Virus record (IMG/VR): IMGVR_UViG_3300032006_000086
Span: 1-23,670 of that record
DNA length: 23,670 bases
Reading direction: 5' to 3' (one strand)
Origin: a virus
The position numbers and the translations under genes were made by a program. Below, piece after piece: positions 6,601 to 17,806 of the stretch. The stretch's first letter is position 1. Every line of letters starts with the position of its first letter. The notes below the pieces were generated by a model. The model was not told the origin of the DNA. It saw only the letters and a list, made by a program, of their open reading frames with translations, and did not search any database.

Positions 6601-6870
6601 GGAAGCATCTTCTTTACGGATACGTCTCATTTTGTTGTTAAGGTCACTCCAGACCTCAGAGACACTTCAGAAAGCGCATTTAACGCTACTATAGTTCAAT
6701 CTACAGTAGAGGGCTCTATGCCTCTTGAAACGAATAGCTTCAGGTTCCCTGTATTTACGGACCCTAAAGGAACCACTATAACCATTGAGAACGCCACTGC
6801 TGCGCCCTGTAACCTTCAGAGCGCAGAATTTGAGTCTTTTGTGCATCAGCGTTCCAGAAGATATGGATAG
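3649..6870 (+). CDS. Tail tubular protein B / nozzle (T7 gp12-like) with inserted Ig-like domain
   Basis: This 1073-aa protein forms the nozzle of the short tail. The N-terminus (SNLIQGVSQQPDAVRFPGQ, about residues 9-27) and the C-terminal SFVHQRSRRYG are diagnostic of gp12. The middle keeps family blocks such as the SVASLLDNDTIDVTVSS region, LVMFSEFGQFVLRGG and YIYFPFRRGSFTGVREF. It is about 280 residues longer than T7 gp12. Much of the excess is a block at about residues 835-940, with NNGSETVPSFNIFVTGLP and LAAGATIAGLTLKYF. This reads like an Ig-like/CARDB-type beta-sandwich inserted before the conserved VGIPYLMKYTFSEQF strand. There is no clear RBS; the start is probably coupled to the upstream gene. 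The 3' end overlaps the next gene by 8 bases. Confidence 0.93.
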   Translation: MPLINSSVSNLIQGVSQQPDAVRFPGQCAEQENALSSVVDGLQKRPATQHVATLLTEVALDANAKVHFIERDNNERYVVIIKGTDNKTISAYNLTTGKQTRIDQKYRGLVNSFTITNDDAGAPSSADIEITTQCPLVIAANDDGTTPVGTLKVVGGGWTSAKRYNLMAVGDGEDKNILKIESLEDGITLFDTTKGELQSVIEYTITGTNSDLVLDSDSYLTDNSGEGVATLSVTPTVPKDDLSLMTTGDVTYVLNTKKPVSKDPISKTRPLDKSALVFIKQGDYEKKYGVRINIDGDANSPHEHHWYSGASQRKADGKFFNTAKNAQADTILAGLFSNDTETVYDAQGELEHTEAVGTNNGLGNLNANGFTADLLAPQIGKITGPDSPNWTIHPVDSMGGEGVGVVHKSVTALTDLPTVAPHRYKVEIAGDLEEQTDNRYVQFLTAGSDETTPDGEIGQGSWYEIGGANIPNHFNINTMPLMLRSTAENVFELGHMPLDGLLAGDDNTNPDPSFVGSTITGVFSFKGRLGFLSGASVSLTEVKFGSYDALNDIQHYNFYRMSVASLLDNDTIDVTVSSAHVVNLMSAVPFQDNLVMFSEFGQFVLRGGDLLTIKTVSANPITEYECDSSVAPVSLGSYIYFPFRRGSFTGVREFTMTVDRDVYDANEVTSHVPQYIPTNLVAMSGAASEELLALTDGTDVYIYKYFFSGNEKILSSWSKFTISGGGIRGLCFVDADLFIVQAVKGQTHLLKMPLENKYRDPSGFNTHLDRRVEREFKADATEPTIVVPYLLAEGETFEVYTKDGLLLQNTKTTVDGSSTLITFKDGVVSGGVPVTLDLATSGLTPSSFPAGSETGLDLDTGLWTQTLSVTNNGSETVPSFNIFVTGLPAGVTLYNADGEYGGRSFITNNTPLAAGATIAGLTLKYFQPDTSGGFTPQFSLGVPGNEVYVGIPYLMKYTFSEQFFGAPSGDKLSPTNVGRKLIRNGSIFFTDTSHFVVKVTPDLRDTSESAFNATIVQSTVEGSMPLETNSFRFPVFTDPKGTTITIENATAAPCNLQSAEFESFVHQRSRRYG

Positions 6871-7330
6871 CGTTGTTGAGACTACTCCAGAAGGTCACAC
6901 TATTAGGATGACCACACAGGCTCACATAGATGAGCTTAAAGAGAATCTCAGGGAGATGGATAAGATTGAGGTTGCCTGCTTTAAGAGCAACCCGGAGAAC
7001 GCACTTAATAACGCCTTTTTGCATGACGACATCACGATGACGGTGATGACCAAGGACGAGAATGTTATGGCTATATTCGGCTCTGGTAAAAAAGAGGAGC
7101 CTTATATATGGATGTTAGGTTCTCCTGAAGTGGAGGCTTACTCCAAGGACTTTCTTCGTCATTGTCGTAAGTGGGTGTGGGCTTTGACCGAGCTGTATGG
7201 GCAGGTCTCAAACTACATACACTCAGAAAACTTTGTATGCCTCAAGTGGCTTGAATGGTGCGGAGCTTCTTTCAGTGAGCCTTTTAGCATCGACGACCAA
7301 ACCTTTATTAAATTCACTATAAATAAATAA
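6863..7330 (+). CDS. Internal virion protein A (T7 gp13-like, DUF2833/GNAT-like)
   Basis: A 155-aa protein between the nozzle and internal protein B, the place of T7 gp13 (138 aa). It has the expected opening (a short charged part, then IDELKENLREMDKIEVACF), the VMAIFGSGKKEEPYIWMLG core, and a C-terminal WLEWCGASFSEPFSID segment resembling the end of GNAT-fold acyltransferases. In T7 the protein is needed for virion assembly and is not known to act as an enzyme. The ATG at 6863 overlaps the nozzle stop; the frame is open further upstream, but that part lies inside the nozzle gene. Confidence 0.85.
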   Translation: MDSVVETTPEGHTIRMTTQAHIDELKENLREMDKIEVACFKSNPENALNNAFLHDDITMTVMTKDENVMAIFGSGKKEEPYIWMLGSPEVEAYSKDFLRHCRKWVWALTELYGQVSNYIHSENFVCLKWLEWCGASFSEPFSIDDQTFIKFTINK

Positions 7331-7336
7331 CTGATT

Positions 7337-8023
7337 ATGTGTATAGTATTACCCCCTGCGGTTCAGGCAGCGCTGACGATTGTGTCTGGGGTGGCTAATT
7401 ACGCCTCCCAAGCTCAAGCAGCGAGAGCACAAGAAAAAGCTCAGTATCAAGCGTCCATTAACGAGATGAAGAGGTGGCAGCACGAAGTTAGTGCTGAACG
7501 CATAGCGGAAGGGCAAGAAGATACAGCAGATGCTCTTGAAGCTCAGAAAGCCGCACGAGAAGCGCAAGAAGCCATAGGTACAATTATAACAAGCGCCGAA
7601 GAGCGTGGGGTTGAGGGTAATGCTACCGGGCTTGCTGTGGCTAACTTCATGCAAGCTAACGCTAACTACCAGACCGCTTTAGACAAGCAAGGGCAGATGA
7701 GGAGACTTTCTAGAGCGCACAGAATCAGAGGAGGAGCGCTAGGATATGTACAGAACATGACAAGAATTAACAAACCCATCGACAGACCTAACTTCTTAGG
7801 GACAGCGCTGAATACCGCCATGCAGGCGTCTGCTGTATTCCAGAATGCCGAGCTTAGCCAAATGCAGCGTGGCCTATATGCTAGAGAGCGTGGGCTTTGG
7901 AACCAGCAGACGGCAAGAGGGATTCAGTCGCGCACGATGGCGAGGCAGAGCGCTGGAATAACCGGAGAGACCTTTAATAGGTTCCGCATCCAAGCCGTAA
8001 ACAGAGCGACAGGAGCAAGATAA
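7337..8023 (+). CDS. Internal virion protein B (T7 gp14-like ejection protein)
   Basis: A 228-aa protein, near the length of T7 gp14 (196 aa), which is ejected at infection and forms the outer-membrane part of the DNA-delivery channel. It starts with a hydrophobic alanine/valine-rich segment (VLPPAVQAALTIVSGVANYA). A long alanine/glutamine/glutamate-rich helix follows, then a GTIITSAEERGVEGNAT motif typical of this family, and a basic C-terminal part. It sits between internal proteins A and C, in T7 order. There is no clear Shine-Dalgarno sequence. Confidence 0.85.
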   Translation: MCIVLPPAVQAALTIVSGVANYASQAQAARAQEKAQYQASINEMKRWQHEVSAERIAEGQEDTADALEAQKAAREAQEAIGTIITSAEERGVEGNATGLAVANFMQANANYQTALDKQGQMRRLSRAHRIRGGALGYVQNMTRINKPIDRPNFLGTALNTAMQASAVFQNAELSQMQRGLYARERGLWNQQTARGIQSRTMARQSAGITGETFNRFRIQAVNRATGAR

Positions 8024-8024
8024 A

Positions 8025-10964
8025 ATGGCTAAAAGAACATCCCTAGCAAAGCAACTGGGTCTTTCAGATGACCCCGTGCAGCCGCAAAGTTTCAGTAGAG
8101 AGGCTTTTAAGTTATCCCCCGTTCCCGTGCGAGGGGGTGGTTGGTCTACTGCGGTCGCCGCTACACCCACACCGTCTCAAACTAACTTAGGACGTTTGTC
8201 TGGTGCTCTTTCTCAAGTGAGTGGTTTGTTAGCTCAAGCGAAAGCTTTTGAGGACAAGAAGCTTGAGATGGAACATAAAGGTCTTCAGATAGACCATCAA
8301 ACAGCTCTCTCCCAGCTTCAAGGGCAGGCTATGGATGCTCGTATTGGAGAGCTTGCGACCAAGATGGACATGGCCGAGCAGATGACAGCGGAAGCTGCTG
8401 AAGCGAACTACTGGGCTAGTATGTCGTTTGAGGAAAGAGAGCGAGCGGAGCGGGAGCAAGCGGAGTTTGTAGACGAAATAGGTAAAATTAGGACAGACGC
8501 TCAGAACGAGATGTTTAAACAGGAGGCTCAAACTCCTGAAGCTAAAAAAGACCCTGTAGTCAAAAACGAAAGAAGAGAGCTGTATAGAGGGGCTCAGGTA
8601 GCTAGAGATTTTCCAGCCGCTCTAACCGAGGCTCTACAAGAATGGGCTGAAGGAAGCGGCGAAGAAGGCGTTCAATTTAGACCCAGCGAGGAAGACTATA
8701 ATGAGTTCGTTATCCAATTTACTGAACGCTACAAAGGGGAACATAACATTGAGCTAGGAAGCACTGCTGACAGAGCTTTTAACGTGGGAACTAGGCGGGT
8801 CTTTGAAACTGTAGTCCCAACCGAAAAAGTTAAATTGTTTGCCGCTTTAGAGGGCGAAGTCCTCATAGATGATATCAAGCAGGCGGAACAAACTCTTGGT
8901 GATATACTCAGTGCAGGAGGGTCTGTATTGGATGAAGCCGCGCTGGAAGCTCCTTGGTGGAACACCCTTAAAGGAAGGAGTCTTAAACAGAAAGACGCTT
9001 TCTTTAAATTGTATGTTGACAACCTTTTAGCACAATCAGAAGCCAACCCAGCTGCATTAGAAACCGCTAAGTTTCTTCTTCGTCTTCCCGACAAAGACCC
9101 AGAGTTTAAATACAGGAGTGACGCTCCTTTCTCTGAGAGTAGTTTGTATCTAACCCAGTTAAATAGAATACTACTCGCAGAAGAGCAGCAGGAGGAAAAG
9201 AGAATAGCAAAAGACGGAAAGAAAGCGTCTCGCTTAACGAATCAACTAGCTCCCTTTATTGCGTGGAGCGCAAGAGGGCTTAGTGTCGATGAAAATTCTA
9301 GCAGGGCTATAAGCGCTCTTCAGCAGGCCTCTGCGCCTACCTCAGCGCTGTTTAGGAGTGTGTTCCCTACTGAACTCACAGAGCAAAATAAAGTGCTACT
9401 AGAGGAAATAGAAGCAGCACCTGAGTATATCCGCTCTGAAGTGGCTCAGTTTATCGCTAATAACTATGCGACTTTTGCTAATAACAAGGAGGGTACTTAT
9501 GAAGCTCTTCTCAAGCGCCTTACTCCTCAAAACCAACCTGAATATGGTCTCCTACCAAAAGACGGGGGCAGGTATACAGGTAGCGACATTGCAAGGGTCA
9601 TAAGGGAGGCTGGTATAGAATTATCCCGACAAGCCGCCGAATCTCTTGGCGATTTCGGAGGGAAAGACGGTCCTTACGGAGAGGGAGATGTACCGGATGA
9701 GGTGAAGGCTAAGCAGTTTTCCGATAAAAGGCTAAGAGAAGAAGTGTATGGTCCCGCCTTGGCTAACAGAAAAGCAGCAAGCCGCAACGCTGTTGAAAAC
9801 TATCTAAACGAATACGAAAGCGAACACGGTACTACGCCGGATATGGAGCAGGCAGCGAAAGATTTAATGCCCATACTAAGTGAAATATATGGCGATAGGA
9901 TGCTCGCTGACATTGCTAGGTATACTGAGGAATCTTTGGAGAGACAGCGGGAAATCGAAGAGATAAGAGCTGCTTCAGTTGAAAAAGGAACCTTAGAAGG
10001 ACTACGAAACGAGCATCGCTCGGTGGTACGCCCTGAGGAGGAATTTGGCGCTAACGAAGGTGCTATACCTTGGTGGGAAAGACAGGACATATATCCTTCC
10101 ACTATGGAGAATGAACCCTCCTTAGGGGCTCTACTTAAGTCCTTTAACGATAAAGCTATAAAAAGAGTTAAAGAAGGGGCAGACGTTACGCCTACCCAGA
10201 AAGCAGAAGAGGCTGACGTATTTCTAGATTCTCTATCTAAGGGGCGCGAAAGATATGAGACCTTAGAAAGAGAAGCTAGAAGAGGTATTATCGATTTATA
10301 CAAAACAGGGTATGGCGCTGTGACGAACTCTCCACCGCAAATGGGAAGGGAAAACTTCCCCGCAATGAAAGAGTTTTATCCTTTTTACTTTAAGCAGCAA
10401 AGAGCTTGGGAGCAAAAGATGGCACATGGAGTGAACATAGAAGACCTGAAAGGCTACATGAGCACCTCTATTGTAAACAACAAGTCTACAGGGCACGTCG
10501 TTATTGATACCCAAGAATCTTATTGGAACGAGGCTGCTGACGAACTGTATAGTGAACGCGGTAAGCGCCCCGAAAAGCACCCCAGTGATTGGAAGTACAA
10601 GGGTACTTGGATAGGGACTCCTACTAAGGGAATAAGACTCCCAGAGGATATTAGAGAAAGAACTACACGCCAGACCGCGCCCTACTTGTATATGGATAAC
10701 GGAGTGGGCTTGAATAAGCTGAAAATACTTAGACCTCCCATCGTTAATTTACCTCAAAATGTCGTTAAAAGAGACGCTGACGGTAGCATCAAATCCGTAA
10801 ACGAGAGCGCCTTTATAAAAGCCACTAACTTGAAACCGGAGGGGCTGAAGCAGCTAACGAACTATTACGGCTTTGAGACCCCTAAAGAGTTTATAATGTA
10901 TCAGTATGACCATCCCATTGCGCGGAGCCAAGTCCTTACCGGCAAAAAACTAGATTTTAAATAA
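8025..10964 (+). CDS. Internal virion protein C (T7 gp15-like ejection protein)
   Basis: A 979-aa protein, larger than T7 gp15 (about 747 aa), which forms the periplasmic tunnel during genome ejection. The N-terminus is short and basic, followed by an alanine/glutamine/glutamate-rich helical region with coiled-coil character (about residues 60-190). The rest is mostly predicted helical repeats without transmembrane segments, signal peptide or visible catalytic motif. Identification rests on size, composition and its place between gp14-like and gp16-like genes. The start has an AGGAG-type site in the end of the preceding gene. A C-terminal part (about 780-979) has more mixed composition and could bind internal protein D. 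Confidence 0.85.
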   Translation: MAKRTSLAKQLGLSDDPVQPQSFSREAFKLSPVPVRGGGWSTAVAATPTPSQTNLGRLSGALSQVSGLLAQAKAFEDKKLEMEHKGLQIDHQTALSQLQGQAMDARIGELATKMDMAEQMTAEAAEANYWASMSFEERERAEREQAEFVDEIGKIRTDAQNEMFKQEAQTPEAKKDPVVKNERRELYRGAQVARDFPAALTEALQEWAEGSGEEGVQFRPSEEDYNEFVIQFTERYKGEHNIELGSTADRAFNVGTRRVFETVVPTEKVKLFAALEGEVLIDDIKQAEQTLGDILSAGGSVLDEAALEAPWWNTLKGRSLKQKDAFFKLYVDNLLAQSEANPAALETAKFLLRLPDKDPEFKYRSDAPFSESSLYLTQLNRILLAEEQQEEKRIAKDGKKASRLTNQLAPFIAWSARGLSVDENSSRAISALQQASAPTSALFRSVFPTELTEQNKVLLEEIEAAPEYIRSEVAQFIANNYATFANNKEGTYEALLKRLTPQNQPEYGLLPKDGGRYTGSDIARVIREAGIELSRQAAESLGDFGGKDGPYGEGDVPDEVKAKQFSDKRLREEVYGPALANRKAASRNAVENYLNEYESEHGTTPDMEQAAKDLMPILSEIYGDRMLADIARYTEESLERQREIEEIRAASVEKGTLEGLRNEHRSVVRPEEEFGANEGAIPWWERQDIYPSTMENEPSLGALLKSFNDKAIKRVKEGADVTPTQKAEEADVFLDSLSKGRERYETLEREARRGIIDLYKTGYGAVTNSPPQMGRENFPAMKEFYPFYFKQQRAWEQKMAHGVNIEDLKGYMSTSIVNNKSTGHVVIDTQESYWNEAADELYSERGKRPEKHPSDWKYKGTWIGTPTKGIRLPEDIRERTTRQTAPYLYMDNGVGLNKLKILRPPIVNLPQNVVKRDADGSIKSVNESAFIKATNLKPEGLKQLTNYYGFETPKEFIMYQYDHPIARSQVLTGKKLDFK

Positions 10965-10972
10965 AAAGAATA

Positions 10973-13900
10973 ATGTCAGAATTCCCTACTACAGGCTCTC
11001 TCTTTGAAGAAAACCTTAAGAACTCCAGCCCGAATCCTGAAGGAGTAGCAGAGGGTAGCTCAATAATCCCCACAGCGTCTTATAGCAATACAGCTAAAGG
11101 AAGCCCTTTGCAGGGGGTAAACGCAGAAAAAAGCGAAGAGCCCCTTGCTTCTGCTGGCTTAGCTGTTCCTCCTACCGAAGAACGCGCAGATAAAACTCAG
11201 AGCCCAAGCACTGAAGACGACAAAATTGGTCTTGGGGATGTTGCAGGAGATATGGGCCTATTTGCGCTGAGAGGTGTGGAGGGCTTTGCTGAGAGTGTTG
11301 CTGGTTTGTTTGGTTCTAAGTGGGACAGAGAAGACTGGAGCGTCTTTGGGAAATCAAAAACCGTTGTAGGGTCTTTTGGTGAAAACCTTGTTCAATTTGG
11401 AATAGGGTTAATCCCCGGCTTGGGGACCGCAGGATGGGTTTCTAAAGCCGCTAAATTGAATAAAGGAAGTAAGCTCGCCAAGAGGGCAAGTACTCTTCGT
11501 AAGGCGCGAGCGCAGAAAAGCCTCGGTCACCAAGCAGCCTTTAGCGGAAAAGTACCAGCGCCTATCGCTCCCTTGGCTAAGGGGAATAGGTCTCTTGATA
11601 TAAAAACCCTTAAGCGCTTAGCTAAGATGAAGAAGACAGCTAAGACCGCTGCTATTTGGGGTTATGCAGGTGCCGTGTCTGACTTTGTAGCATTCAAAGG
11701 GCAAGAAGCGCGCCTGTCGAATCTGCTACAGGGGATGGGTGTTGAGAATGATTTGGTTCAGTATTTAGCGTATGACCCCACACAAGATTCCAGTGAAATG
11801 GAAGAACGCCTTAAGAATGTTATTGAAGGCGGTATTGTTGGTACAGCTGTTGGTGGTGTCATTGATATAGCGGGTAGAGCGGGAGCTTTTAAGTTTATTG
11901 GAAAGTCTATCGGTAAAATCAGACGCAAGAATCAGCTTGTTCACGAAGGAATGGACGAAGCTGAAGCTATCGAAAAAGCTGAAAGAGAGTTCGTAGAGGC
12001 TGTTTCAGATGACCCAGAAATGCTCCGAGAGATGGCGGATTTTGAGGCTCAGATGAAGCACGAACAGTATCTGAGAGATAACGGTGCCCTCCCGGCTCCT
12101 GCGCGTCTGGGAGGAGATGAGCTACCATTCGGAGGTAACGAGGACACGCTAGATGTCTGGTATGGTGCGGGTCAAAACAAAGAACTCAGCAACTTAGCTC
12201 CTAGACCGTTTACGTATGAAGGAAAGGAATACAAAAGCGTAGAACACGCATACCAGACGCTAAAGTCAGGGCGGTTTGATGACGCTACATACAGTAACCC
12301 TGCGTGGAATAGAGGCGGCGTTAAAATAAGAGGAAAGCTACAAGCTGACAAGGAGACTAATGTAGGCTTGATGGAGCGTCTTATTAGGGAGTCTTTCGAG
12401 CAGAATCCAGAGGCTTCTCAAGCGCTCCTTAAAACTAAAGGAAAGACTCTTACCCACCTAAGGGACAGAAGCATCTGGAGGGATAAGTTCCCCGAAGCGC
12501 TCACCAAGGTGCGCTCAGAGCTTGAAGCTAAGCAGCCTAAAGAAGCGCCTCCAGCTCGTGTTGAGGAGCCCTCAGGACCCACAATGCACTCTGGAGGAGC
12601 CAGTGGGGCTGACACAGTGTTCCAAGAGATGGCAGAGAAGGCAGGAATGAATGTTAAAGCTCATTCGTTTCGAGGACACGCTGCTGGTAACAAGCGGAGA
12701 GTGGAGCACACTCCCGAAGAGCTTAAGGAAGCCAACGAGCACCTTAAGAGAGCAAACAAGACTCTTAAGAGGAAATTCCCAGCAGGAAGCGCCTACGTCA
12801 ACAATCTCCTGAGAAGGAATTATTTTCAGGTTAAGGATGTTGACCAAGTGATTGCTGTGGGGCGGATTGAAAACGGACAGGTGCAGGGAGGAACTGCATG
12901 GGCTACCCAGATGGGCGTAGACATGGGTAAAGAAGTTCATGTGTTTGATATGAACACTAATAGCTGGCACTTCTGGGACGGCACCACTTGGGGTAAATCC
13001 GGTGAAGGAAAGAGGCCTATTTTGTCGGACAGCTTTGCTGGTATTGGCTCTAGGAATCTTTCTGATGAAGGCAAAGAAGCCATCCAGAATCTGTTCAAAG
13101 ACTCCGCCTTTATTAAGCGACGCAAAGCGGCGCACACCAGCGCCCAGTCGGCAGCTGGGAGGCAGTTGACCTCATTAGGCGAGAAGCCCCAAGAGACTTC
13201 TAGTAAGATTGTCCCTGTCAGCGACCCGGACGCTATTTCCGTCATGCGCGGCCCTCAGGGAAGGCACATGAATAACACCAAACCCGGAGAGCCGGGGTGG
13301 TTGGGGAACCCATTCAAATGGAAAGGGAACGGAGGCAAAGGAACGGTGGAAGAAGCCATCGCTAAGTTCAAGCAAGCCTTCTTGAAGCGTATTGAAGAAG
13401 ACCCAGCGTTTAAGGCTGAGCTAGAAGGAATCGTTGGGCGAAAGCTTGGTTACTACAAGCCTAAGGCTGAGAAAAGCCACGCTCAGGTTATTAAGGCGTG
13501 GTTGGACGAAGCAGGGGTAAGTAAGACTCCTAGAAGGGGGTTTAAGCCGACTAATACTTACACAGGGCTTGTGGATAAACTAAAAGAAAACCAAGTGTTT
13601 GTCTTTACCTCAAACCATAGAGGATTTCACGGAGCAGGTTCCGCAGGGTATGCCAGCTTTAATGTAAGCGGTAATAGATGGCGGGAGATGGGTTATGGTG
13701 AGCTACCTGACGGAACCCAAGGAAAATGGAATGTTAAAGGACAGGGCGAAGGTCTTCAAAAAGGAACTGAAGGAGAATCTTATGCTTTGCCTACCGTAAC
13801 AAAACCGGGCGCTAAAAAATCTATTCCAGAGGAAGAACTCGTCTCTAACATCAGGAAGATGTATGAGACAGCCCGAGCTAACCCTGAAAAAGAATTTTTA

Positions 13901-16900
13901 GTAGCTCAGAGCGCTAAAAAGGGACTCAGCGGGTGGAGCGGGGATGACATGGCTCGTATGTATCATGCGGCAGGGGAAGTCCCAGATAATGTTAAGTTTG
14001 AGCAGAGGTTTGGGGCCAAAATAGACAATCAAAGCAGGAAAGGCATTGACGAGTTCCCTGTAGGTGGTGCGGGAGGAGAAGCTCCCAAGAAACTCCCACT
14101 TCCTAAGATAAAGGGTGAGGATGCTACCGTGGACATGGTGGACGACCTAAGCGAGGCAGAACTTAATGAGTTCTTGTCTGAGTTTGGTGACCTAGATATC
14201 CCTAGCGTTGCCGGGGCGTTATCGACCAAGAGGCAGATAGCCAAAGACATTATCGAAGCTGGAGAGCACACGGGAGAGGTCATTGCGGACATCGAAGGCT
14301 TAGTAACTAAAGTTGTGAGCGAAGCTGGTGACGACTTCCTGACAGGAACAGGAGACCAAGCAATTCTTGCAGGAAGAAAGCTTCTTTCTGGGGTGCATAG
14401 TAATGAAGGACTAGTTGCGTTAGTTCGTGTTCTTGCGCGTAAAGCGGTCGAGAAACGCCATGATTTGCATGGCCCTTCTAGAAATGCGGAAGAAACATTC
14501 GACAGGGTGGAGAAGTCTCTTGTCGATAAAGACCACTGGGATGTCTTTGACAGGGACCTAGTTCACCAACGCCTAGAGCAGGCTAGAGGTAACGTAGACG
14601 CTTTGGAAAGAATCTATGCGGAACAAGACATGATTCACAAGCTCTACACTACTTTAGCTGAAGAGGTTGGAGAGTCGGTTAAGAGAGCCGAGAAAGCGAA
14701 GAAGACAAAGGGCACCGTCACTTTTGATATCATGGAAGACGGGGTGGCCAAGCAGGCGGTATACGGTTACGAGGAGTTGCTTACTGAGGTGTATTCAAAC
14801 CTCGATAAGTTCTTGGCTGTTAAAGAACTGTGGGCTGAGTACGGAACCCACCTTTCGCTGGGGATGCTTCAACGCAAGTTCATCTACGAAGGCACAGGAA
14901 CAAGGGGCATAACTCGTAGAAAAGACTTAGGGTTCAGGCCCAAGATGAAAGGTGTAGACTATGACCAGTCTATGGAAAGGAGGGCTTATATGCAGGGAGT
15001 TAGAGGGTCCAGAAGCCAACGTCAATTCCTAGCGGAACTCAGACAGGCGACTAACGCCTCAGACCTAGAGGCTGCTTTAGGTAAAATAGGTAAAGACTCT
15101 AGAAACGGGTTCGCCAGAACTATGGGTTGGTATCTCAACGCTTTGCTCAGTAACCCTGTGACTTGGGGCGTTAACATGGTTGGAAGCGCTATTATGAAAG
15201 GCTTTAGAGACTTTGAGGTCATTGCGGGAAGTATGGCGCAGTTCGCGCATACTGGTAATGCTGACCTGCTAAGAACTCGTATTAAAGCCATCTACGACAT
15301 GGAGTCTTTTATGGAGGCATGGAAGTATGCCGCTATTAGCCTTAAAGAAGGAGAGCCAAGAAGTATTGCTGGGCACACCGCTTATTCAGACAACAGGTTT
15401 GAAGATATGAAATCAGGGTGGCACTTCGGAGACGGAGATGACCCCCTGACTAGGGCCGGTAATTGGTTTGGTAATCTTGTATCAGGACCTTCTAGAGTCC
15501 TCATGGCTGGTGATGAGTTCTTTAAGCAGTGGAACTACCGCTCATACGTAAAGGCAGATTTAGCTATGGAGGCGCACAGGAGAGGCATAAAGGACCCGTA
15601 CGAAATAGCCTCTTACGTTAGAGACTCCTTTGAATCACACATGACCAAAGAAGGGCGCATAGCCAATGAGGCCAATGTTTATAAAGAAGCCGCGCAAGCA
15701 GCGGACGACAACGGGCTTAGGTTTGGAAAAAGAGCCTCCTTTATTGACGAATACATGGATGAGCACTTTTACGAAAACAACCTGAGACTTGATGACGGCT
15801 TTGTCTACCGGACTACAGAGCAGAGAGACTTACTAGTTAACAGAGCCACCGACTGGGCTTTGGTTAACACTTTCACAAACAATCCTTCTCATCCATTTGC
15901 TAGGTGGGTTTCTAAAACAGCTATGGCGCACCCTTGGCTTTCGTTCGCTATTCCCTTTGTTAGAACCCCGACAAATATCCTTACGTTCGCCATGAGCAGG
16001 GTAATCCCGCTACCCGGATGGGGCAAAGCACATCAAGCATTTGATGTTCAGGATGTGCTGGATAAAAGAGGCAGGCCCGGCGGCTATGGCGCTTTGAGTC
16101 TTAATCCTAACAGATTTACGGTAGGCAGTGAGCAGGCGATAATGAACACTAATCGTTACGCCAAAGCCGCAAGAGGACAAGACACCGGGATGGAGCTTCC
16201 AGCGGACGCTAGGGAAAGATACGAAAATTCAGAGTGGAACGAACCTGTAGTGAAAAGGGAAGAAATACCTTTAAAGAAGGCAGACGGAAGACATCAAGCT
16301 CCCGCTTTCATTAGATATGACGAAGGACCTACTGGAACAATCCACATAGACGAAGCTAGAATCAAAGAGATGTATGACCGTAAAGCTTGGAGAGCGGATG
16401 GTCCTAACGTGGTTCCGGGGGTAAAGCCCCTAGATGACAAGCACTTCAAAACCCCTGAAGATTTTGAAAACTTTGTTATGGAGCACGAAAAAGCGCATCA
16501 GTATCTCAGGCAAAGAAAGCGCGAAAACGAATCAAAGGGTGACTATGAAAACAGAGTAAACCAAGAAGCTTTGAAGCGGCTTGAGTTTAAGAAAAATCAC
16601 GGCTCTGGCTGGCAAAAGCAGCTAAAAGAGCAATACGGTGATATGCCGTTTTCTGAGGCTATGGCGAAAGAGCACCTACACGCGCAAGCGCAAGCTGGTG
16701 CGGTAGCCGCAGCTGAGCACCACGGAAGACTGACTACCGCTGCTATGATGACGGCAAGTTCGTTGTACACTATAGAGCTTATTCAGGAACGTATTACAGG
16801 TTCCCCACCAGAATCTAGAGCTGCTAAAGCTGCGTGGGATGCTGCTGGAAAGAGGCCTTGGTCTATTCTAGTTGGCGAAGGAGAAGACGCTAAATGGGTT

Positions 16901-17806
16901 AGCTACCAAAGAATGGACCCGTTTGCTACCATTATAGGTATATTTGCTGATATCGTACACATGACTCCTGCTTTAGCGGGAGAAGACGAAGCGATGGGCA
17001 TGATTGCGACTGACTCAGAGATAGAAGACGGTATGCAGGCTATGTCTAAGGTAGCCGCAATCATCTCAATGACATTCACCAATAACATCACTAACGGGTC
17101 TTATGTAGAGGGGCTTTACGAAACTATGGAAACTTTCAAGGACCTTACTAAGGCCCCTGAGTTTCTAGCGAAAATCGCATCTGGGTTCGTTCCTACGGGG
17201 CTTACTTGGACAGAAAACCTAGTAGAAAAAGACCCTCAAATTTATGAGGCTCGTAAGTTGCTAGACCATGTGATGAAGAAAGTCCCAACCTATATGCGCC
17301 CAGATATGCCTGAGACGCCTGTGACGTCGGCTAGGCTGGAACCAAGAAGGAACTGGCTGGGAGAAAAGATAAAGAAGACAGGACCGTTCCTTCCTTCTTT
17401 TATTGGTCTTGGTCAGCAAGTTCCCTCTTCAACAGACCCTGTTGACTTAGAGCTTCTTTCTATAGGTAAAGGGTTCTTACAGAGACCCTCTATATGGAGC
17501 GGCGTGTTGGACACTAAGAAGTTCAGAAACACTAACGGAGGTCAGTCAGCGTACGACAGGCATCAAGAGCTGCTTTCTACTATGAATCTTGGAGGGCGAA
17601 CTGCTAGGCAGTCTATTAGGGCGTTAATTGAGAGCCCTAAATACCAAGCTCTTCCCCCGGCTACAGACATGACTATTGGGAAGACGCATCCAAGACAGAG
17701 AGCTATAGCTAAAATACTTAATTTCTACTCAGACCACGCTAAAAACCAAGTGATGGAAGAGTACCCGGAATTGAGACAGGCTTATTACCAAACCTTACAA
17801 CAATAA
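10973..17806 (+). CDS. Internal virion protein D (T7 gp16-like) polyvalent protein with NADAR, SLOG-like, DUF4326, A1S_2505-like and HExxH domains
   Basis: This 2277-aa core protein is far longer than T7 gp16 (1318 aa). Residues 1-80 look disordered. About 85-330 is an Ala/Gly-rich region with GxxxG-type hydrophobic segments (LVQFGIGLIPGLGTAGWV; IEGGIVGTAVGGV). Residues ~390-520 are NADAR-like (LSNLAPRPF; SVEHAYQ at 422-428). Residues ~535-710 are a SLOG/DprA-like Rossmann domain (SGGASGAD 540-547, VQGGTAW from 637, FAGIGSRNL 688-696). Residues ~753-850 are DUF4326-like (WLGNPF 776-781), and ~873-1013 A1S_2505-like (VFTSNHRGFHGAG). The conserved core-protein region follows (~1350-1700: LLSNPVTWGVNMVGS, LMAGDEFFKQWNYR, FVRTPTNIL). 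HEKAH lies at 1838-1842, with Glu1865 in NRVNQEAL as a possible third zinc ligand. The C-terminus has YQRMDPFATIIGIFADI. No N-terminal lytic transglycosylase motif is seen. By analogy with T7 it would be ejected into the host. Confidence 0.88.
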   Translation: MSEFPTTGSLFEENLKNSSPNPEGVAEGSSIIPTASYSNTAKGSPLQGVNAEKSEEPLASAGLAVPPTEERADKTQSPSTEDDKIGLGDVAGDMGLFALRGVEGFAESVAGLFGSKWDREDWSVFGKSKTVVGSFGENLVQFGIGLIPGLGTAGWVSKAAKLNKGSKLAKRASTLRKARAQKSLGHQAAFSGKVPAPIAPLAKGNRSLDIKTLKRLAKMKKTAKTAAIWGYAGAVSDFVAFKGQEARLSNLLQGMGVENDLVQYLAYDPTQDSSEMEERLKNVIEGGIVGTAVGGVIDIAGRAGAFKFIGKSIGKIRRKNQLVHEGMDEAEAIEKAEREFVEAVSDDPEMLREMADFEAQMKHEQYLRDNGALPAPARLGGDELPFGGNEDTLDVWYGAGQNKELSNLAPRPFTYEGKEYKSVEHAYQTLKSGRFDDATYSNPAWNRGGVKIRGKLQADKETNVGLMERLIRESFEQNPEASQALLKTKGKTLTHLRDRSIWRDKFPEALTKVRSELEAKQPKEAPPARVEEPSGPTMHSGGASGADTVFQEMAEKAGMNVKAHSFRGHAAGNKRRVEHTPEELKEANEHLKRANKTLKRKFPAGSAYVNNLLRRNYFQVKDVDQVIAVGRIENGQVQGGTAWATQMGVDMGKEVHVFDMNTNSWHFWDGTTWGKSGEGKRPILSDSFAGIGSRNLSDEGKEAIQNLFKDSAFIKRRKAAHTSAQSAAGRQLTSLGEKPQETSSKIVPVSDPDAISVMRGPQGRHMNNTKPGEPGWLGNPFKWKGNGGKGTVEEAIAKFKQAFLKRIEEDPAFKAELEGIVGRKLGYYKPKAEKSHAQVIKAWLDEAGVSKTPRRGFKPTNTYTGLVDKLKENQVFVFTSNHRGFHGAGSAGYASFNVSGNRWREMGYGELPDGTQGKWNVKGQGEGLQKGTEGESYALPTVTKPGAKKSIPEEELVSNIRKMYETARANPEKEFLVAQSAKKGLSGWSGDDMARMYHAAGEVPDNVKFEQRFGAKIDNQSRKGIDEFPVGGAGGEAPKKLPLPKIKGEDATVDMVDDLSEAELNEFLSEFGDLDIPSVAGALSTKRQIAKDIIEAGEHTGEVIADIEGLVTKVVSEAGDDFLTGTGDQAILAGRKLLSGVHSNEGLVALVRVLARKAVEKRHDLHGPSRNAEETFDRVEKSLVDKDHWDVFDRDLVHQRLEQARGNVDALERIYAEQDMIHKLYTTLAEEVGESVKRAEKAKKTKGTVTFDIMEDGVAKQAVYGYEELLTEVYSNLDKFLAVKELWAEYGTHLSLGMLQRKFIYEGTGTRGITRRKDLGFRPKMKGVDYDQSMERRAYMQGVRGSRSQRQFLAELRQATNASDLEAALGKIGKDSRNGFARTMGWYLNALLSNPVTWGVNMVGSAIMKGFRDFEVIAGSMAQFAHTGNADLLRTRIKAIYDMESFMEAWKYAAISLKEGEPRSIAGHTAYSDNRFEDMKSGWHFGDGDDPLTRAGNWFGNLVSGPSRVLMAGDEFFKQWNYRSYVKADLAMEAHRRGIKDPYEIASYVRDSFESHMTKEGRIANEANVYKEAAQAADDNGLRFGKRASFIDEYMDEHFYENNLRLDDGFVYRTTEQRDLLVNRATDWALVNTFTNNPSHPFARWVSKTAMAHPWLSFAIPFVRTPTNILTFAMSRVIPLPGWGKAHQAFDVQDVLDKRGRPGGYGALSLNPNRFTVGSEQAIMNTNRYAKAARGQDTGMELPADARERYENSEWNEPVVKREEIPLKKADGRHQAPAFIRYDEGPTGTIHIDEARIKEMYDRKAWRADGPNVVPGVKPLDDKHFKTPEDFENFVMEHEKAHQYLRQRKRENESKGDYENRVNQEALKRLEFKKNHGSGWQKQLKEQYGDMPFSEAMAKEHLHAQAQAGAVAAAEHHGRLTTAAMMTASSLYTIELIQERITGSPPESRAAKAAWDAAGKRPWSILVGEGEDAKWVSYQRMDPFATIIGIFADIVHMTPALAGEDEAMGMIATDSEIEDGMQAMSKVAAIISMTFTNNITNGSYVEGLYETMETFKDLTKAPEFLAKIASGFVPTGLTWTENLVEKDPQIYEARKLLDHVMKKVPTYMRPDMPETPVTSARLEPRRNWLGEKIKKTGPFLPSFIGLGQQVPSSTDPVDLELLSIGKGFLQRPSIWSGVLDTKKFRNTNGGQSAYDRHQELLSTMNLGGRTARQSIRALIESPKYQALPPATDMTIGKTHPRQRAIAKILNFYSDHAKNQVMEEYPELRQAYYQTLQQ

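Follow-up and report, generated by a model that had tools for sequence, protein, structure and literature searches.

The stretch of DNA analyzed here, called the window (IMG/VR virus record IMGVR_UViG_3300032006_000086; 23,670 bases, an incomplete contig), encodes a gp16-like ejection protein that, judged by its sequence, is a polyvalent protein: disparate effector domains lie within one large protein built on a T7-like gp16 chassis. A preliminary description, made from the letters alone, placed NADAR, SLOG, DUF4326 and A1S_2505 domains in that order between the N-terminal part and the core of the protein, and indeed each matches published profiles (Table 1). It overlooked a further insertion, a zincin-like module inside the core. 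Its interpretation, that the domains enter the host with the first DNA and could neutralize ADP-ribosyl or NAD-derived defense signals, with DarT-like, Thoeris and other NADase systems as candidate targets, is partly supported.

The gp16-like chassis

We call the protein gp16 on the basis of gene order and homology to the marine "internal virion protein D." Residues 1336 to 2273 match that protein of pelagiphages and roseophages by tblastn (CRP-804, E value of 4e-16), and the gp16-like protein of a sister phage, L021, matches phrog_6651 (1.9e-19). Ordinary gp16 relatives are about 1140 to 1350 residues long, versus 2277 here. A PDB search with a profile of six ordinary gp16-like proteins did not retrieve T7 gp16.

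Table 1. Features of the gp16-like protein and its neighbors (positions in the window; residues of the gp16-like protein; HMM, hidden Markov model)
Feature	Residues	Positions	Strand	Evidence
gp14-like ejection protein		7337..8023	+	Pfam T7_gp14 5e-16
gp15-position ejection protein, 979 residues, without cysteine		8025..10964	+	gene order, cysteine count
gp16-like ejection protein (internal virion protein D), 2277 residues, without cysteine		10973..17806	+	open frame; tblastn; cysteine count
gp16 N-terminal conserved part	86-380	11228..12112	+	own HMM, also matching gp16 of ordinary marine podoviruses
NADAR domain	391-522	12143..12538	+	phrog_1017 1e-12 on domain; Pfam 4e-7 on segment
SLOG domain, circularly permuted YpsA type	537-708	12581..13096	+	phrog_768 5e-15; alignments; AlphaFold model
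DUF4326 domain, cysteine-free variant	745-848 (approx.)	13205..13516	+	Pfam, PHROG, alignment
A1S_2505 domain, predicted macro-domain fold	863-1013	13559..14011	+	NCBIfam, PHROG, AlphaFold, PDB matches
gp16 core, part 1	1361-1674	15053..15994	+	own HMM, alignment
gp16-core insertion with zincin-like HExxH module	1678-1898	16004..16666	+	alignment; homology to L036
gp16 core, part 2	1913-2271	16709..17785	+	own HMM

The four-domain block

The NADAR domain contains the motif SVEHAYQTLK (residues 422 to 431), in which E424 and K431 stand at the described active-site positions, seven residues apart, as in solved members (PMC11543638). The active-site Glu and Lys are conserved over the superfamily, and the third position is Glu, Asp or, in phage NADARs, His (PMC11543638). 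Here, H495 falls at or beside that third position, varying with the alignment. The LTH motif of the domain is common to relatives borne on the giant proteins L119 and L151, and a PDB sequence search with the domain returned YbiA as the sole match (E value of 0.013).

The two SLOG motifs of the preliminary description belong to one circularly permuted domain, with SGGASGAD (residues 540 to 547) at its start and FAGIGSR (residues 688 to 694) at its end, the same order as in relatives. The block was modeled by AlphaFold in two parts, because aligning all four domains together misplaced the pieces, and NADAR was left out. The modeling, which the preliminary description had proposed as a check, returned SLOG and macro folds for the SLOG and A1S_2505 domains. 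The SLOG part has a predicted local distance difference test (pLDDT) score of mostly at least 95, and its best PDB match is 3imk, with a probability of 1.00, a target template modeling (TM) score of 0.62 and a weak E value of 3e-3. A PDB sequence search found nothing relevant for SLOG, and the SLOG copy of the giant protein L036 was matched by the Pfam circularly permuted YpsA family at 0.019.

DUF4326 and A1S_2505 were described earlier as uncharacterized domains that recur in phages. The recurrence holds, but DUF4326 has been placed in a rhodanese-phosphatase clade (PMC9503650), and a fold can now be proposed for A1S_2505. The DUF4326 copy scores 25.4 bits in Pfam against a cutoff of 25 (2.4e-5 on the segment) and matches phrog_464 (3e-8). 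It contains the GNPF motif, within WLGNPF (residues 776 to 781), and lacks the Cys-rich C-terminal motif: the C.C..CHG of standalone members is YY..SHA here, much like other copies in giant proteins.

A1S_2505 is predicted to adopt a macro fold, of the ADP-ribose-binding type. The domain, whose motif FTSNHRGFHGAG spans residues 878 to 889, matches NCBIfam NF049995 over its cutoff (2.8e-15) and phrog_2072 (7e-16). Its model (pLDDT, 89.5; predicted TM score, 0.86) has macro domains, or designs and fusions based on them, as leading PDB matches; the top Foldseek matches are macro domains (E value of 3.7e-5), with a Z score of 9.7 to TARG1 and YmdB. The family is unnamed in databases and includes the N4 gp14-like proteins. 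We note that in Bacteroides phage DAC16 (L024:310-1035) the domain is fused to a YAcAr-type SLOG (Pfam, 2.7e-11).

A zincin-like module in the core

The core insertion is extra relative to eight gp16 relatives in an alignment and is missing from ordinary gp16s and from a second gp16 lineage, L065. It contains the zincin-like motif HEKAH (residues 1838 to 1842; positions 16484 to 16498) with a downstream Glu and is 50% identical to a module of L036, in which the order is DUF4326, zincin and SLOG. A gp16-core match in L036, from an early search with our own HMMs, was rejected, as it is actually the zincin insertion. No match to the module was found among the phage records searched, and its relatives were too few for a good model. 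HExxH was found in none of the ordinary gp16s examined, and the L065 gp16 contains a HEMLH of its own, within a stretch that matches the N4 virion RNA polymerase (vRNAP). Zincins are the commonest domain of polyvalent proteins, common and not obligatory (PMC5512222).

The same domains in other giant proteins

SLOG lies inside the vRNAP of the N4-like Klebsiella phage Pylas (about 42% identity). A crAss-like protein of 4328 residues carries SLOG at its C terminus, and crAss-like "RNA polymerase" giants contain the macro domain. Mass spectrometry detected the corresponding class of large proteins in phi-crAss001 virions (PMC10172136). Scans for SLOG and macro yielded 123 dereplicated open reading frames (ORFs), whose domains were counted with our own HMMs. 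At least two of the four domains occur in 19 of 51 giant ORFs with SLOG or macro versus 0 of 64 small ORFs. The 19 are an upper estimate, because Pfam confirmed some of the DUF4326 calls in giants, gave others weak support, and gave those in L108 and L151 none. Among the scanned ORFs, only the window protein has all four domains together, and close relatives of the whole block come from one contig only.

Several giants carry other features. A giant with SLOG (L031:3724-12504) also matches a 2OG-Fe(II) oxygenase (AlkB-type family, 4e-7), and a 2873-residue protein (L046:1604-10222) combines NADAR, DUF1848, SLOG and a weak DUF4326. The unnamed domain phrog_9995 lies directly upstream of SLOG or DUF4326 in giants L029, L037 and L057 and possibly belongs to the domain set as well. 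The giant of crAss-like phage cr113_1 (L011:15-12998) has an open frame only if TAG is a sense codon and contains 73 TAGs. Finally, N4-like phage Axy04 encodes among its early genes a small DUF4326-like protein (L008:3846-4655; own HMM only, not Pfam) near a standalone macro protein.

Exchange of cassettes

By sequence comparison, the block behaves as cassettes that are gained and lost. In sister phage L021, the same gp16 carries NADAR, DUF4326 and the zincin-like module; a different stretch replaces SLOG, and macro is missing. Moreover, the L065 gp16 has DUF4326 (Pfam, 2.4e-4) and SLOG in the matching location. In these other gp16s the domain string was found as subsets, and the full set in none of the other ORFs scanned. 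Between the window and L021, 7 of 43 fourfold sites differ in DUF4326 versus 297 of 584 in the remainder of the gene (P = 1e-5), which indicates that the DUF4326 cassette was swapped more recently than the surrounding gene. Synonymous divergence (dS) is low in the two cassettes shared with L021, which points to recent exchange, with an omega of 0.12, and purifying selection on the shared cassettes equals that on the rest of the gp16 gene. Finally, the SLOGs of the window gp16 and the L065 gp16 sit in different supported halves of the tree, which makes two or more separate acquisitions of SLOG by gp16 most likely.

Exclusion of cysteine

The gp15-position and gp16-like proteins have no cysteine in 3256 residues, and the terminase and nozzle have 5 each. 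Cysteine is also missing from the capsid and from two further short virion proteins of the same phage, and thus its absence is not exclusive to ejected proteins. The exclusion reaches homologous domains elsewhere: SLOG is cysteine free in 28 of 28 giant-borne copies versus 3 of 36 standalone copies, and macro in 27 of 27 versus 9 of 32. Cysteine alone among residues changes in this all-or-none manner. Mann-Whitney P values for cysteine ignore kinship and overstate independence, because the tree needs four changes between the giant and standalone states; the association holds across those changes. One N4-like vRNAP was previously noted to be without cysteine (PMC4837373). The simplest reading is that the cysteine-free domains themselves travel through ejection, which would argue against removal of the block before packaging.

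Genome and gene neighborhood

The source appears from its sequence to be a marine Autographiviridae-like phage, because its terminase is 74% identical to that of Ayaqvirus S45C18 and about 63% identical to those of roseophages; the host is probably an alphaproteobacterium. Late genes of the window follow a T7-like order (capsid, tail, nozzle, gp14-like, gp15-position, gp16-position, tail fiber and terminase), with nozzle, gp14-like and gp15-position genes all preceding the gp16-like ORF. An ORF between nozzle and gp14 (6785 to 7330) is at a position annotated as "putative acetyltransferase" in phage S28C10.

What the block may do

NAD-based immunity is a main bacterial answer to phages, and it is fast acting. 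We lean toward a role for the gp16-like protein as a polyvalent ejection protein, delivered ahead of the DNA, that counters ADP-ribose-type signals or adducts early in infection. A T7-like gp16 would have acquired the block between its N-terminal part and the DNA ejection core, and the zincin-like module inside the core. The protein would travel in the phage head and be threaded into the host before the DNA, and the block domains would refold in the host cytoplasm, there to bind or break ADP-ribose-type molecules, most likely soluble NAD-derived alarm signals and less likely base adducts. NAD-based defense would be blunted ahead of phage gene expression, and the zincin may cleave the protein and free the block. 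The domains, their folds, the homology of the chassis, the turnover of cassettes and the exclusion of cysteine come from sequence or models; presence in the virion, arrival in the cytoplasm, catalysis, substrate and the action of the zincin are inferred. The polyvalent-protein idea of the preliminary description is strengthened by the zincin-like module, the exchange of cassettes, the recurrence in other ejected giants and the cysteine-free domains. Moreover, coupled NADAR, SLOG, macro and DUF4326 in DNA viruses have been proposed to counter soluble ADP-ribose derivatives (PMC9503650).

Several observations weigh against early delivery and action on ADP-ribose-type molecules. The NADAR Pfam score is under the gathering cutoff, family libraries gave no match to the zincin-like module, and the case for a zincin consists of a motif together with synteny and homology to the L036 module. 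In the DUF4326 copy, where the Cys residues present in standalone members are lost, phosphatase chemistry that depends on Cys is unlikely. The N-terminal part of T7 gp16 ends up in the periplasm, which makes the side of the inner membrane that the block reaches after ejection a further difficulty. Finally, a phage NADAR was active on guanosine-ADP-ribose in vitro and failed to protect cells against DarT1 (PMC11125620). DarT was down-weighted as the main target for that reason and is a weaker candidate than soluble signals.

The main rival is that the domains bind rather than cleave, such that the block would soak up or sense ADP-ribose-type ligands and some domains would be catalytically dead. 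Macro folds often bind ADP-ribose and do nothing more, and the DUF4326 copies in giants have no cysteines. Moreover, SLOG domains of the YpsA type include ligand sensors (PMC9503650). We consider pure binding unlikely, however, as the Glu and Lys positions of NADAR are kept and purifying selection matches that on the remainder of the gene. Less probable still is that the domains serve RNA repair or the salvage of NAD or nucleotides early in infection rather than antidefense. In some phages, RNA repair and the salvage of NAD are tied to NADAR and macro domains (PMC9503650), but the fragment, an incomplete contig, showed neither an RNA ligase nor a salvage gene, and the recurring partners of the block domains are one another and zincins, not repair enzymes.

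Alternatively, a zincin might free the block to act late, in the producing cell rather than the next host. In favor of this, P1 DdrB undergoes processing ahead of packaging (PMC5512222), and the window protein contains a zincin-like module. The N4 vRNAP, however, has a zincin and is packaged whole (PMC5512222), and cysteine exclusion reaches the block and homologous domains of other giants, as expected mainly of passage through ejection; we regard late action as quite improbable. That the protein is an assembly chimera or the block a neutral passenger seems very improbable. SLOG and macro in this gp16 come from one contig only, but a single uninterrupted frame spans the whole gene and every domain junction, an independent contig has the same gp16 with NADAR, DUF4326 and the zincin-like module, DUF4326 and SLOG occur together in an independent gp16, and the shared cassettes are under purifying selection.

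Comparison with known systems

The gp16-like protein resembles the polyvalent proteins of Iyer et al. 2017 (PMC5512222) in that it is large, multidomain and putatively ejected and combines effector domains with a zincin-like module. The text of that work does not mention NADAR, SLOG or gp16, whereas here a T7-like gp16 chassis carries predicted ADP-ribose-handling effectors. The virion-packaged NAD-ADP-ribose systems couple the same four kinds of domain, with a proposed antisignal role, but the viral versions are described as typically standalone, with stress on myoviruses (PMC9503650), and here four are in one podovirus ejection protein. The Pylas vRNAP and the crAss-like giant cargo proteins likewise place SLOG or macro inside giant Cys-free or Cys-poor proteins, but on other chassis and with a single domain of the four found in each. 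The N4 vRNAP also has an HExxH domain (PMC12633501). The phage NADAR of the T4 gp30.3 type, a member of which hydrolyzes guanosine-ADP-ribose, is free-standing and outside virion proteins (PMC11125620). Finally, the N4 gp14-like proteins belong to the same A1S_2505 family as the fourth domain but are standalone genes in N4-like phages; the copy here is fused and has a longer insert common to giants L028 and L029.

Implications

A widespread and unnamed phage family, A1S_2505/N4 gp14-like, gains a predicted macro-fold identity, and the same cassettes appear to move among unrelated ejected giants. Ejection proteins may commonly carry ADP-ribose-processing cassettes that are captured and exchanged among T7-like, N4-like and crAss-like lineages, and capture may bring complete cysteine loss as a signature of injected proteins and domains, a proposal that we hold to be evenly balanced. 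If it is true, absence of cysteine would be a simple test for injected phage proteins. Ultimately, if the gp16-like protein counters ADP-ribose-type signals as we favor, an ADP-ribose-handling kit delivered in this way would be at work before any transcription of the phage genome.

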